Assembly: GCA_021818025.1 (NCBI GenBank)
Contig: JAKAFH010000009.1
Coordinates: 1-41,304, forward strand
Direction: 5' to 3'
DNA length: 41,304 nt
DNA from: Actinomycetes bacterium
Lineage (GTDB): Bacteria > Actinomycetota > Acidimicrobiia > Acidimicrobiales > RAAP-2
The notes below the pieces were generated by a model. That model worked only from the letters and a program-made list of their open reading frames with translations. It was not told where the DNA came from and did no database searches. How positions within the stretch are numbered: position 1 is the first letter of the stretch; every line of letters begins with the position of its first letter. The translations under genes and the position numbers were made by a program. Below are positions 7,565 through 21,228 of this stretch, one piece after another.

Positions 7565-12149
<4,585 letters not shown>

Positions 12150-16021: not shown

Positions 16022-17068
<1,047 letters not shown>

Positions 17069-17623
17069 CTACGGCTCGGGGGTGGTCGGGGTGCTTCGGC
17101 CAAGTCTAGGGAGTGCGACGCGGCCCGTTCGGTGCAGTTCGACCTCCGCGAAGGCCTCCAGGGCCCGCTCGAGGTCGTCGCACGCGCTTGGCGTGCCCGC
17201 GAGCATCACCGTCACGGCGCCCGGGTCGACGTCGACGATCGCCGCGCCGGCGTTGCCGAGCGTGTCGAGCAGCGGCGTCCGGTTCGCGACGTCGGTCTTG
17301 ATCGTCGCGAGCAGCAGCTCGCGTTCGACGGCCTCACGGGGCGCGATGTCGGTGATGTCGACGACGTTCACGAGCTTGTCGAGCTGGCCGACGATCTGCT
17401 CGAGGGGGGCTGACTCGGCGTCCACGACGATCGTGACCCGCGAGTACCTCGCGTGGCTCTCCGACGGGGCCACGGCAAGCGAGTAGATGTTGAAGCCGCG
17501 CCGCGCGAAGAGCCCGGCGATGCGCGCGAGCACGCCGGACTTGTTCTCCACCAGCACCGAGAGGATGTGGTGGCGAACCGGGGAGTGCGTCGACTCGCCG
17601 GCGAAGGGTTCGGGGACGTTCAT
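17069..17623 (-). CDS. ilvN: Acetolactate synthase small (regulatory) subunit
   Basis: A 184-residue regulatory subunit. The N-terminal ACT domain (about 18-90) contains ILSVLVENKSGVLARIAGLF and RRGFNIYSLAV, the valine-binding region of the family, followed by the usual C-terminal ALS_ss_C domain (about 100-170). It activates IlvB and confers valine feedback. The ATG overlaps the ilvB stop in ATGA (17620-17623), which fixes the start. The last ~10 residues (RSTPTTPEP) are a short extra tail. Confidence 0.95.
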   Translation of the reverse strand: MNVPEPFAGESTHSPVRHHILSVLVENKSGVLARIAGLFARRGFNIYSLAVAPSESHARYSRVTIVVDAESAPLEQIVGQLDKLVNVVDITDIAPREAVERELLLATIKTDVANRTPLLDTLGNAGAAIVDVDPGAVTVMLAGTPSACDDLERALEAFAEVELHRTGRVALPRLGRSTPTTPEP

Positions 17624-19335
17624 CGCGCACCGCCGCGCTGGGAGGGGTGCACCAAGATGTCGTCGTTAGAGACGCCGGCGGGCACCATCGGGAAGACCTT
17701 CTCGGCGCTGTCCGTGCGGAAGTCGATCACGACGGGCACGTCGTTGATGGTGTTGGCCTCGTCGATCACGTCGTTCATCTCCTTCACGTTGGTCGCGCGC
17801 AGGCCCACGCAGCCCATGGCCTCGGCCCACTTGACGTAGTCCGGCAGGTCCGGCGAGAGGTAGACCTCGCTATATCGCTCGTCGTAGAACATCTCCTGCC
17901 ACTGGCGGACCATGCCCAGGTAGGCGTTGTTGAGGATCGCGACCTTGATGGGGATGCCCTCGGACCGGGCCGTCACGAGCTCCTGGGCCGTCATCTGGAA
18001 GCAGCCGTCGCCGTCGATGCACCACACGGTGCGATCGGGACGGCCGGCCTTGGCGCCGATCGCCGCGGGGACGCCAAAGCCCATGGTTCCCGCGCCGCCC
18101 GAGTTCACCCAGGTGTTGGGCTCCTCGAAGGGCCAGTGCTGGGCGGTCCACATCTGGTGCTGGCCGACGCCCGAGGCGACGATGGTTCCCGCCGGCGCCG
18201 TGCGCGCGATCGACTCGATGACGTGCTGGGGGCGCAACGGCCCGTCCACCTCGGGCTCGTCGTAGGTCAAGGGGTAGCTCGCCTGCCAGGACCGGATCTC
18301 GCGCCACCAGCCATCGAGGTTCCTCGGCCTCGCGCCCGCGGCGTCAAAGGCGCGCAGTGCCGTGGCGACGTCGGTCTGCAGGGCCACGTCGGGCCGACGG
18401 ATCTTGCCGAACTCGGCGCGGTCGATGTCGACGTGGATCACCTTCGCGTCGGGCGCGAAGGCCGCGATCTTGCCGGTGACCCGGTCGTCGAACCGGGCGC
18501 CCAGGGTGATCAGCAGGTCCGCGCGCTGGATGGCCGTGACCGCGGCGTAGACGCCGTGCATCCCGGGCATGCCAAGGTGCTGGTCGTGCGAGTCGGGGAA
18601 GGCGCCGCGGGCCATCAGGGTGGTCACCACGGGAATGCGCGTGCGCTCGGCGAAGGCCAGCAGCTCCGCGGTCGCCCGGGACTTGAGGGTCCCGCCGCCG
18701 ACGTAGAGCACGGGCCGCTCGGACGACTCGATGAGCGCCACGCAGCGCGCCACCGCCGACTCGTCGAGCTCGACCGTCGGCCGGTAGCCCGGTAGTCCGA
18801 GCTCCTCGATCCCCGAGGGGTACCACCACTCCATCGTGGACTGGGCGACGTCCTTGGGCACGTCGATCAGCACGGGGCCGGGACGGCCCGTGGTCGCGAG
18901 GTGGAAGGCGGCCGCCACCGCGCGCGGCAGCTCGTGGGCCGACTGGACGAGGAAGTTGTGCTTGGTCACCCCCATCGTGATGCCCGTGATGTCGCACTCT
19001 TGGAACGCGTCCAGGCCGATCGAGCTGGTGGCGACCTGGCCGGTGATCACCACGAGGGGCGTGGAGTCCATGTGGGCGTTGGTGATCGGCGTGACGATGT
19101 TGGTCGCGCCCGGGCCACTGGTGACCATCGCCACCCCGGCGCGCCCGGTCGCCATCGCGTAGCCCTCGGCCATGTGGCCGGCCCCCTGCTCGTGGCGCAC
19201 GAGGATGTGGCGGATCGAGGAGTCGAGCAGCGGGTCGTACACCGGCAGGATGGCGCCACCGGGCAAGCCGAATACGGTGTCGACGCCCTGCTGCTCGAGG
19301 CTCTTGATGAGGGCTTGTGCGCCAGTGAGTTCCAC
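17620..19335 (-). CDS. ilvB: Acetolactate synthase large subunit
   Basis: A 571-residue thiamine-diphosphate enzyme that makes acetolactate from pyruvate, or acetohydroxybutyrate from pyruvate and 2-oxobutyrate. The catalytic Glu is E49 in VRHEQGAGHMAEG. The ThDP motif begins with GDGCFQMTAQEL and ends in ILNNAYLGMVRQWQ. The middle domain has the FAD-binding LGARFDDRVTG block. The start is GTG at 19335 with AGGA five to six bases upstream and gives the expected MELTGAQALIKSL. A 16-codon leader peptide and an intrinsic terminator precede it. The presence of IlvN and the biosynthetic operon argue against the catabolic AlsS type. Confidence 0.96.
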   Translation of the reverse strand: MELTGAQALIKSLEQQGVDTVFGLPGGAILPVYDPLLDSSIRHILVRHEQGAGHMAEGYAMATGRAGVAMVTSGPGATNIVTPITNAHMDSTPLVVITGQVATSSIGLDAFQECDITGITMGVTKHNFLVQSAHELPRAVAAAFHLATTGRPGPVLIDVPKDVAQSTMEWWYPSGIEELGLPGYRPTVELDESAVARCVALIESSERPVLYVGGGTLKSRATAELLAFAERTRIPVVTTLMARGAFPDSHDQHLGMPGMHGVYAAVTAIQRADLLITLGARFDDRVTGKIAAFAPDAKVIHVDIDRAEFGKIRRPDVALQTDVATALRAFDAAGARPRNLDGWWREIRSWQASYPLTYDEPEVDGPLRPQHVIESIARTAPAGTIVASGVGQHQMWTAQHWPFEEPNTWVNSGGAGTMGFGVPAAIGAKAGRPDRTVWCIDGDGCFQMTAQELVTARSEGIPIKVAILNNAYLGMVRQWQEMFYDERYSEVYLSPDLPDYVKWAEAMGCVGLRATNVKEMNDVIDEANTINDVPVVIDFRTDSAEKVFPMVPAGVSNDDILVHPSQRGGAR

Positions 19336-19356
19336 AATTCCTACTTCCGTCGATAT

Positions 19357-19385
19357 AAAGAAAAAAGCCTCCCGATTGGGAGGCT
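19357..19385 (-). terminator. Intrinsic terminator of the ilvB attenuator
   Basis: On the minus strand an 8-bp stem (AGCCTCCC / GGGAGGCT with a 4-base loop, 19385-19366) runs into TTTTTT CTTT (to 19357). It ends about 20 bases before the ilvB GTG. The GGGGATAGGC in the leader-peptide coding sequence (codons 12-15) can pair with the 5' arm GCCTCCC through a 2-base bulge, a plausible antiterminator. Confidence 0.92.
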
Positions 19386-19386
19386 T

Positions 19387-19414
19387 CCGGTGAACGCGTA
19401 TACGTGACTACCGG
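19387..19414 (-). promoter_or_regulatory. Hairpin between ilv leader peptide and terminator
   Basis: CCGGT at 19414-19410 and ACCGG at 19391-19387 can pair, enclosing a smaller ACG/CGT stem. The 5' arm overlaps the end of the leader peptide (CGG TAG). It sits where a pause or antitermination hairpin is expected. The outer stem is only 5 bp, so the fold is tentative. Confidence 0.5.
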
Positions 19415-19458
19415 TGCCTATCCCCTACTACTACCAGAATCAGGCGGCCCGTGGTCAC
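19408..19458 (-). CDS. ilvL: ilvBNC leader peptide MTTGRLILVVVGDRHR
   Basis: A 16-codon frame, GTG to TAG, containing Leu-Ile-Leu-Val-Val-Val in a row at positions 6-11: six consecutive codons for the three branched-chain amino acids. It ends 72 bases before ilvB and is followed by an intrinsic terminator. This is the expected design for attenuation of ilvBNC by charged Leu-, Ile- and Val-tRNA; a leader with a similar Val-rich run is known for ilvBNC in Corynebacterium. The GTG lies 5 bases after TAGATT, with no Shine-Dalgarno, so it is probably leaderless. The segment cannot belong to ilvD, whose stop lies at 19549. Confidence 0.9.
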   Translation of the reverse strand: MTTGRLILVVVGDRHR

Positions 19459-19463
19459 GGGAC

Positions 19464-19493
19464 AATCTAAGCACACGGAGCCAACCGGCACAA
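19464..19493 (-). promoter_or_regulatory. Promoter of the ilvBNC leader
   Basis: Minus-strand TTGTGC (19493-19488), an 18-bp spacer and TAGATT (19469-19464), followed by 5 bases and the leader GTG. The -10 region and the bases after it (TAGATTGTCCCGTG) resemble those of the leuA leader (TAGACTGTCACCGTG). Confidence 0.65.
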
Positions 19494-19548
19494 GACAGGG
19501 GAACGCGGCGAGCGTGGCGAGCGTGGCCCGGTTGCTGCGTCGCGTTTT

Positions 19549-21228
19549 CTAGCGCGACGTGACCGCGCCGGTCTCGGCGCCCTGGACGAGGCGCGCGAAC
19601 TTCTCGAGCACCCCTGACGTGTAGCGCGGCTCGAAGGGCGCGCGTCGCGTGGCGCGCTCGGCCAGCACCGCGTCGTCCACGAGCAGGTCGATGGTGTTGG
19701 TCGTCACGTCGATCTCGATGACGTCGCCGTCCTCGACGAGACCGATCGGCCCGCCGTCGAGGGCCTCAGGCGCCACGTGGCCCACGCAGAAGCCGTGCGT
19801 GCCGCCGCTGAAGCGACCGTCGGTCACGAGCGCGGAGTCACTGCCCCGACCCACGCCCTTCATGGCGCCCGTGACGGCGAGCATCTCGCGCATACCGGGT
19901 CCGGACTTAGGTCCCTCGTAGCGGATGACGACCACGGTCTCGGGCTGGATCTCGCCCGCGAGGATGGCCGTCATGGCCGCGTCCTCGCCGTCAAAGACCC
20001 GCGCCGTGCCGCGGAAGTGCAGGTTGTCGATGCCGGCGACCTTCACGACCGCACCCTTGGGCGCGAGTGAACCGCGCAAGACCGCGATGCCGCCGCGGTC
20101 GTGAATCGGGTCGTCCACGCCGTGGACCACGTCGCCGTCGGGCTTACGCGCGGCGAAGGCCTCCAGGCTCTCGGCCATCGTCCGGCCCGACACCGTCATC
20201 ACGTCGCCGTGCAGCAGGCCGCGCTCGAGCAGGTGCGCGAGCACCACGGGCACCCCACCGATCTCGTCGATGTCGCTCATGTGGTACTTGCCGTGGGGCT
20301 TGGTGTCGGCGATGTGGGGCACGCGCGCCGCGATCGTGTTGAAGTCGTCCAGCGCGAGGGGCACGCGCGCCTCGTGCGCGATGGCGAGCAGGTGCAGCAC
20401 GGCGTTGGTCGAGCCGCCAAGGGCCATGACCACGGCGATGGCGTTCTCGAAGGCTTCTCGGGTCATGATCTGGCGGGCCGTGATCCCCCGGTCGAGGAGG
20501 TTGACCACGGCCAGGCCCGAGTCGTAGGCGTACTGGTCGCGCCGGGGGTCGATCGAGGGCACGCTGGCGCTGCCGAGCAGCGACATGCCGATGGCCTCGC
20601 CCACGCTCGCCATGGTGTTGGCCGTGAACATGCCCGCGCAGCTACCCTCGCCGGGACAGGCCGCGAGCTCGACCTCGCGCAGCTCGTCGTCGCTCATCGA
20701 GCCCACCGCGTTCGCGCCGACCGCCTCGAACACCGAAGTGATGTCCAGGGACTGGCCGTGCAGGTGCCCGGGCATGATAGTGCCGCCGTAGAGGAAGACC
20801 GCGGGCACGTCCAGGCGCGCCGCCGCCATCAGCATCCCCGGCAGCGACTTGTCACAGCCCGCGAAGGTCACGAGCGCGTCGAAGCGCTCCGCGTGCATCA
20901 CCGTCTCGACCGAGTCGGCGATGACCTCGCGTGAGACCAGCGATGCGCGCATCCCCTCGTGACCCATGGAGATGCCGTCCGAGACCGCGATCGTGACGAA
21001 CTCGAAGGGCACCGCGCCCGCGTCGCGCACCGCGACCTTGGCGTGCTTGGCCAGCCGCTCCAGGGGCAGGTTGCAGGGCGTCACCTCGTTCCAACTCGAC
21101 GCCACGCCGATCTGGGCCTTGACCATGTCGTCGTCGCCCATGCCCATGGCGCGCAGCATCGCGCGCGCGGGCGCGCGGCCCTTGCCGAGGGTGACGTCGG
21201 TGCTTCGAGGAGTGGGGTGGGTCGTCAT
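19549..21228 (-). CDS. ilvD: Dihydroxy-acid dehydratase
   Basis: A 559-residue iron-sulfur dehydratase making the 2-oxo acids of valine and isoleucine. Cluster-region cysteines are visible: C52 in VTPCNLPL, C125 in [10 protein letters not shown] and C197 in [14 protein letters not shown], the pattern of [2Fe-2S] IlvD rather than of Edd. C-terminal blocks [19 protein letters not shown] and the neighbouring ilv genes support the call. The start at 21228 lies 6 bases after a TAGACT box and has no Shine-Dalgarno, so a leaderless mRNA is likely. ilvD has its own promoter and ends about 90 bases before the ilv leader promoter, so it is transcribed separately from ilvBNC. Confidence 0.96.

Follow-up and report, generated by a model that had tools for sequence, protein, structure and literature searches.

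The ilvBNC operon of Corynebacterium glutamicum is preceded by an attenuator whose leader start codon lies one nucleotide from the RNA start and whose control codons are CUU and GUA. As the available text of that study describes it, an anti-antiterminator hairpin (H1) shields the start codon, and a GCC trinucleotide is common to the antiterminator (H2) and the terminator (H3) (PMC11857589). By description, the element analyzed here is very similar. It also precedes an ilvBNC operon, its main valine codon is GUA, its leader start is predicted to lie at or next to the RNA start, and its candidate start-shielding helix (1:2), antiterminator (2:3) and terminator (3:4) follow the same order, the last two sharing GCC. 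It differs in that its codon run usually holds two or three GTA codons, and in that the start codon itself serves as strand 1 of helix 1:2. The C. glutamicum terminator is backed by mutants in the accessible part of the report (PMC11857589), whereas ours is proposed from sequence. Because a near-leaderless start, a GUA control codon and three hairpins are published for C. glutamicum, this kind of attenuator is itself already known.

Other actinobacterial systems share these traits. The ilvB-II motif of Corynebacterium, again likened by description, has an upstream frame that is usually 15-17 codons long and rich in Ile, Leu and Val, a T-tailed terminator and an alternative antiterminator, and in the available account it occurs once per genome, upstream of ilvB (PMC10272879). 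Mycobacterium tuberculosis ilvB1NC resembles our locus in its branched-chain amino acid (BCAA) upstream frame with LVVI control codons, its terminator and antiterminator, and the ribosome-footprint logic applied to it; as far as the available text goes, GUA is named there as a regulatory codon, induction was lost when the LVVI codons were replaced by Ala codons, and the RNA from start to ilvB1 measures 166 nt (PMC13236596), compared with about 123 nt at our locus, counted from the leader GTG as the assumed RNA start. A 2005 survey predicted actinobacterial ilvB leaders with I/V/L runs and T-tailed terminators upstream, like those of our locus, and in its accessible portion called the mode of ilvB regulation unclear (PMC1262725). 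That text also cites work in Streptomyces coelicolor in which candidate ilvB leader codons could be changed without effect (PMC1262725). Attenuator-like anatomy is thus not proof.

In the literature searched, mostly non-subscription papers, we found no earlier description of leader-peptide attenuation of ilvB in Acidimicrobiia. The genome list of the 2005 survey, in its available form, contains no member of what we take to be this class. The DNA considered here, a 41,304-nucleotide stretch that we call the window, comes from an Acidimicrobiales genome assembly of 2.06 Mb in 148 contigs. Among the best 80 of 454 contig matches, the ilvB loci nearest to the window's belong to metagenome assemblies labelled Actinomycetes, Acidimicrobiaceae or Acidimicrobiales; ilvB of Acidithrix ferrooxidans, in the order Acidimicrobiales, is more distant, with 64% identity. 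The 213-bp gap between ilvD and ilvB holds a leader open reading frame and a terminator (Table 1). A preliminary description of the window had proposed a branched-chain attenuator upstream of ilvBNC at this place. The conserved codon run, terminator, folding and covariation presented below support that proposal, and we consider it highly likely that the element is a ribosome-mediated transcription attenuator of ilvBNC.

Table 1. Positions of the ilv and leu features in the window (position 1 is its first nucleotide)
Feature	Position	Strand	Remarks
ilvC, ketol-acid reductoisomerase	16022..17056	-	TIGR00465, 471.4 bits (cut-off 226.15)
ilvN, acetolactate synthase small subunit	17069..17623	-	TIGR00119, 143 bits (cut-off 56.9)
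ilvB, acetolactate synthase large subunit	17620..19335	-	controlled gene; TIGR00118, 757.9 bits (cut-off 538.35); GTG start at 19335
Putative intrinsic terminator 3:4, AAGCCTCCC-AATC-GGGAGGCTT	19361..19386	-	9-bp stem, AAUC loop, T6 tail; conserved pairing
Predicted antiterminator 2:3, AGGC/GCCU, CCGGU/ACCGG, apical ACG/CGU	19381..19419	-	81.3% of cells paired
Strand 2 of predicted helix 1:2, GUCACG	19403..19408	-	from last base of stop codon; pairs with strand 1
Leader open reading frame, GTG...TAG	19408..19458	-	encodes MTTGRLILVVVGDRHR; putatively leaderless
Regulatory codons CTG ATT CTG GTA GTA GTA	19426..19443	-	inside leader frame
Strand 1 of predicted helix 1:2, CGUGAC	19454..19459	-	contains start codon; 90.1% of cells paired, 57 sequences
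-10 element TAGATT, 5 bases before GTG (or TTAGAT, 6 before)	19464..19469	-	predicted promoter
-35 element TTGTGC of leader promoter	19488..19493	-	TTG at matching distance in relatives
ilvD, dihydroxy-acid dehydratase	19549..21228	-	TIGR00110, 713.2 bits (cut-off 618.15); upstream of ilvB, co-directional
leuA	7565-9247	-	preceded by leucine-run leader
leuA leader, GTG...TAG, 12-residue leucine-run peptide	9357-9319	-	six bases after TAGACT -10-like element
leuA terminator CCCCCGC-ATCC-GCGGGGG-T6	from 9295	-	hairpin GGCGAG...CTCGCC also follows leader

The short leader frame rich in codons for the end products, as looked for in ilvB attenuators, is present. The reported run Leu-Ile-Leu-Val-Val-Val lies in a 16-codon frame as described, and no other open frame of up to 40 codons, counted from its first start, has at least six consecutive L/I/V codons on either strand of the window. 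The accompanying idea that the run allows sensing of all three amino acids is too strong. Among 55 distinct leaders of the close group, valine occurs in all and leucine in 53, and isoleucine in only 41, being missing from the other 14. VV is found in 50 of these leaders and VVV in 39, and the distance from the last valine codon to the stop is five codons in 47. The valine codons themselves are strongly skewed: GTA makes up 136 of 161 (84%) in the close leaders and 74 of 2798 (2.6%) in the adjacent ilvB genes, and the same holds in 31 distinct leaders from elsewhere in the order (49 of 70 leader valine codons, against 61 of 1727 in the genes). Valine dominates the sensor, chiefly through the rare codon GTA. 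Since GTA recurs amid differing RNA context, selection on decoding seems a likelier source of this preference than a folding constraint. The genome encodes tRNA-Val with anticodons TAC and GAC, as seen in the 30 tRNA loci scanned of 44 matches.

Two near relatives (L035 and L036) have natural frame-shifted leaders in which the peptide ends early, as VVGG with a stop at GGATAG, and the usual stop is lost. Both keep the strands of helix 1:2 (5 pairs) and of 2:3 (6 pairs) despite the shifted frame. The string GTAGTAGTAGG was rejected as a genome-wide signature: it has 3 sites in the genome, as does a reversed control pattern, and no leader is visible by eye at the other two.

An intrinsic terminator lies between the leader and the first structural gene. 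It begins 21 bases past the leader stop and carries the expected T tail, although its stem has nine pairs, not the eight first reported, and the distance from the last T to the ilvB GTG is 25 bases, which corrects an earlier figure of 20. When positions 18800-20200 were scanned with the terminator consensus, 2 terminator-like sites were found, one of them 3:4, where 0.3 was expected from shuffled sequence. We aligned 57 distinct close sequences, the window included (alignment A1; three rows, L031, L072 and L074, have alignment errors near strand 2 and were counted unchanged, and the stop-side segment of the two frame-shifted leaders was placed by its distance from the terminator). In this alignment, 98.8% of the cells of helix 3:4 are paired and 7 show double changes, compared with 1.0 after shuffling. 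All 57 sequences have a tail of T5 or longer. RNAalifold reports the terminator only.

RNA folding and covariation, which the preliminary description had named as checks, both support an alternative antiterminator as the counterpart of this terminator. The predicted 2:3 pairing has 10 double-change cells against 2.9 in shuffles, and 0 of 500 shuffles scored as high. In an alignment-free comparison, CCGGU:ACCGG is swapped for GCCUCU:AGAGGC in five rows and for GGCCUCGGUA:UACCGAGGCC in two, and a mean helix as long as this was not reached in any of 500 re-pairings of the strands. The close group thus keeps an antiterminator pairing that would exclude the terminator, though RNAalifold does not see it and controls in which the strands were slid by -3 and -2 columns exceed it in double-change cells (13 and 17), with only 43% and 30% of their cells paired. 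The antiterminator strand proposed at the outset, GGGGATAGGC (19425-19416), can pair with the 5’ arm of the terminator in this genome, but its GGGG part is a local feature: the full string GGGGA(T/C)AGGC occurs in 6 of the 57 sequences, and the part that is conserved is GGC. The conserved candidate antiterminator is GGC/GCC plus CCGGU/ACCGG.

Helix 1:2, which like the likely leaderless start was absent from the preliminary description, has the weakest support of the three, as its controls show. A single pair shows double changes (3 cells against 1.2 shuffled), sliding by +2 columns gives 7 double-change cells and an equal covariation score at 66.4% paired, and 5 of 500 strand re-pairings are as long. 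GUGC:GCAC and GUGC:GCGC forms of the helix occur in at least two lineages of the ilvB tree. Taken at the level of predicted structure, three mutually exclusive helices are kept in the 57 close sequences, with modest covariation.

A promoter is predicted immediately before the leader. Of 57 distinct upstream regions, 53 have TTG where a -35 element is expected, with a spacer of 15-20, compared with a mean of 6.1 and a maximum of 13 in shuffled regions; in 86% of the 57, a T stands seven bases ahead of the start. The leader starts were picked using the -10 score, which makes the -10 statistics partly circular and affects the -35 test less. Of the 57 sequences, 4 have a Shine-Dalgarno-like sequence ahead of the leader and 48 have one ahead of ilvB. 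From the position of the promoter and the missing ribosome-binding site, the leader mRNA is probably leaderless.

The same evidence bears on a simpler reading, in which the hairpin serves only to end the ilvD transcript or to attenuate transcription constitutively, and the open frame plays no part. Intergenic terminators are common, and ilvD lies just upstream on the same strand. RNA that reads through from ilvD would not have the leaderless start, and the element therefore probably terminates the ilvD transcript too. However, a plain terminator needs neither the conserved L/I/V codons, the GTA skew and the conserved spacing from last valine to stop, nor a -35/-10 promoter at a near-fixed distance before the leader start, and the antiterminator pairing exceeds shuffled pairing. 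We judge it very improbable that termination of ilvD transcripts or constitutive attenuation is all that the element does.

How a translating ribosome might choose between the helices of the attenuator was modelled by folding only the RNA ahead of it, with a footprint that reaches 12 nt past the codon centre; this is close to the 26-nt footprint used for M. tuberculosis in the available text of that work (PMC13236596). Equilibrium folding with a masked ribosome and pairing allowed across it had been uninformative and was replaced by this scheme. For the window, the energy of the exposed RNA is -20.4 kcal/mol with the ribosome at codons 6-7, -17.4 and -15.4 at codons 8-9, -10.8 and -10.2 at the last two valine codons, and -1.7 at the stop. 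Over the 57 sequences, the mean is -19.3 kcal/mol at the first codon of the run and -2.1 at the stop, the two energies differing by at least 3 kcal/mol in 57 of 57. The mean probability that the 5’ arm of the terminator is held upstream falls from 0.68 at the first run codon to 0.25 at the last valine and 0.14 at the stop. In these models, a ribosome at the control codons thus permits the antiterminator, and one at the stop blocks it.

Some of these values need to be read with care. The first-codon effect is stable for a footprint edge of 9-17 nt, and at 15 nt the effect at the last valine is mostly lost (18 of 57). Taken alone, the difference in energy between first codon and stop is not diagnostic, because it is partly just a matter of length and is also found in 32 of 32 order-level leaders, for which no overlapping antiterminator is predicted on average. 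Relative to mononucleotide shuffles, the exposed RNA at the first valine has a mean z of only -1.21. In nascent transcripts that end just after strand 2, helix 1:2 has a probability above 0.5 in 52 of 57, and in 7 of 57 once segment 3 has been made, which points to an early, transient structure in models without a ribosome. In full-length folds of the close-group leaders listed, the terminator wins at every ribosome position. Switching must therefore be kinetic, as in known attenuators.

Folding also speaks to the alternative that the main effect of the upstream frame is on how ilvB mRNA is translated or how stable it is, or is exerted through Rho, and that the intrinsic terminator contributes little. 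In the full-length fold of the window, the ilvB ribosome-binding region is paired with leader codons (CCUG and UUCUG) at a probability of 0.49. A published precedent exists in the LEU element, where leucine codons pair with the leuA Shine-Dalgarno box, and the S. coelicolor ilvB leader cited in the same source does not behave as a classical attenuator (PMC1262725, available text). However, the candidate pairing lacks conservation, with a mean probability of 0.11 and values over 0.5 in 3 of 57 sequences, and we rejected it; all 57 close sequences retain a strong T-tailed hairpin. We therefore think it highly unlikely that control of ilvB translation, mRNA stability or Rho outweighs intrinsic termination. 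A metabolite-binding or T-box riboswitch is barely credible, even though some ilvB genes elsewhere are described, in the accessible text of one study, as controlled by a ppGpp riboswitch (PMC10272879): a comparison of the whole window with Rfam 15 gave 0 matches at gathering score, the leader scores highest below threshold with Phe_leader (25.2 bits, where 55 is required), which is likewise a family of leader peptides, and only 72 bases separate the leader start from the terminator, 51 of them taken up by the leader frame.

We envision the ribosome-mediated attenuator working as follows. A promoter just upstream would start RNA at or next to the leader GTG, and translation would begin from an essentially leaderless 5’ end. 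If charged Val-tRNA (above all the tRNA that reads GUA), Leu-tRNA or Ile-tRNA is short, the ribosome would stall at codons 6-10, and the RNA ahead of it could fold as 2:3, taking up the GCC(U) of the 5’ arm of the terminator. RNA polymerase would then continue into ilvB. With these tRNAs charged, the ribosome would move on to the stop codon and cover strand 2 and its neighbours, letting terminator 3:4 form. Without ribosome loading, helix 1:2 may occupy both the start codon and strand 2, which would also favour the terminator.

A more specific version of this scheme can be put forward tentatively, and we think it rather unlikely to hold in full. Here, the leaderless 5’-terminal GTG is itself strand 1 of the anti-antiterminator, so that one hairpin decides both whether a ribosome loads and whether RNA polymerase stops. 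Only RNAs from the element's own promoter could escape termination, since ilvD readthrough RNA would load no ribosome and always stop, and the sensor would read essentially tRNA-Val(UAC) as a proxy for the whole BCAA pool. The preference for rare GTA makes it testable whether switches of this type read one tRNA or an amino acid more generally.

The leader is widespread among relatives. We examined 110 ilvB loci, 30 of them, counting the window, from the genome set and the other 80 being the best of 454 contig matches, with some species present twice, and scored a leader as at least 3 L/I/V residues near the end of a frame, 15-40 bases before a CCTCC...GG[AG]GG hairpin; these criteria are lenient, and in distant loci some chance frames would satisfy them. 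A leader of the window's type was found at 106 of the 110 (the start of one, L049, was reset by hand). The four misses are two loci with a run of 29 N (L022 and L063), one with only 41 upstream bases (L088) and one anchored at residue 104 (L094), in which a leader is visible although the rule missed it. In a sample of 25 ilvB loci that was not ranked by similarity, with a single locus from each genome and 22 loci from outside the genus, 23 pass the leader-plus-terminator rule. Two of the 25 (L152 and L167) are the same DNA as loci of the larger set (L100 and L096), and two partial ilvB matches (G030 and G048) were left out. Of the two that fail, one shows by eye the run LLQVV (L164) and the other a weaker candidate (L155).

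A covariance model of the close group matches 32 of 198 genomes of the order, five of them in the genus; all 7 matches for which the position of ilvB was available lie just upstream of it, and one genus member (G110) gave no match to this model. The codon run and the terminator, whose conservation in relatives the preliminary description had named as a check, are both retained within the genus and are widespread in the order. The close-group antiterminator is unsupported in order-level leaders, where the terminator arm is held with probabilities of 0.16, 0.11 and 0.27 at the first run codon, last valine and stop. Our order-level claim is thus limited to peptide and terminator. Within that scope, the element extends classical BCAA attenuation to Acidimicrobiales and is otherwise an expected control element on an expected operon. 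The 86 distinct leaders collected (55 close and 31 order-level) can be used to calibrate the matching of codons, stop position and hairpins.

The leaders outside the genus have an arrangement of their own. At 32 order-level loci (mostly L078-L111) and at L146-L167, almost no space is left between the L/I/V run and the stop codon. Between the stop and the terminator, the same loci have a strong hairpin that often reads UAGCGCACG...CGUGCGC and does not clearly overlap the terminator.

The window holds what appears, from its sequence, to be a second, leucine-specific attenuator, a candidate that precedes leuA. Its leader is apparently leaderless. Of 30 leuA loci, 23 pass a rule that combines a leucine run and a terminator; among the remaining seven, five have a leucine-run leader by eye, and two (L174 and L180) are without one. 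The published actinobacterial LEU element has a leucine leader like that of the window, but in the available portion of its description a pseudoknot and a Shine-Dalgarno stem take the place of a terminator (PMC1262725). The leuA leader of the window seems to differ from it by its intrinsic terminator.

Finally, four records titled 'Acidobacteria bacterium' (L057, L060, L073 and L091) carry ilvB genes 77-82% identical to that of the window and the same type of leader; one of them, L057, was also placed on the ilvB tree. These records are probably mislabelled assemblies.
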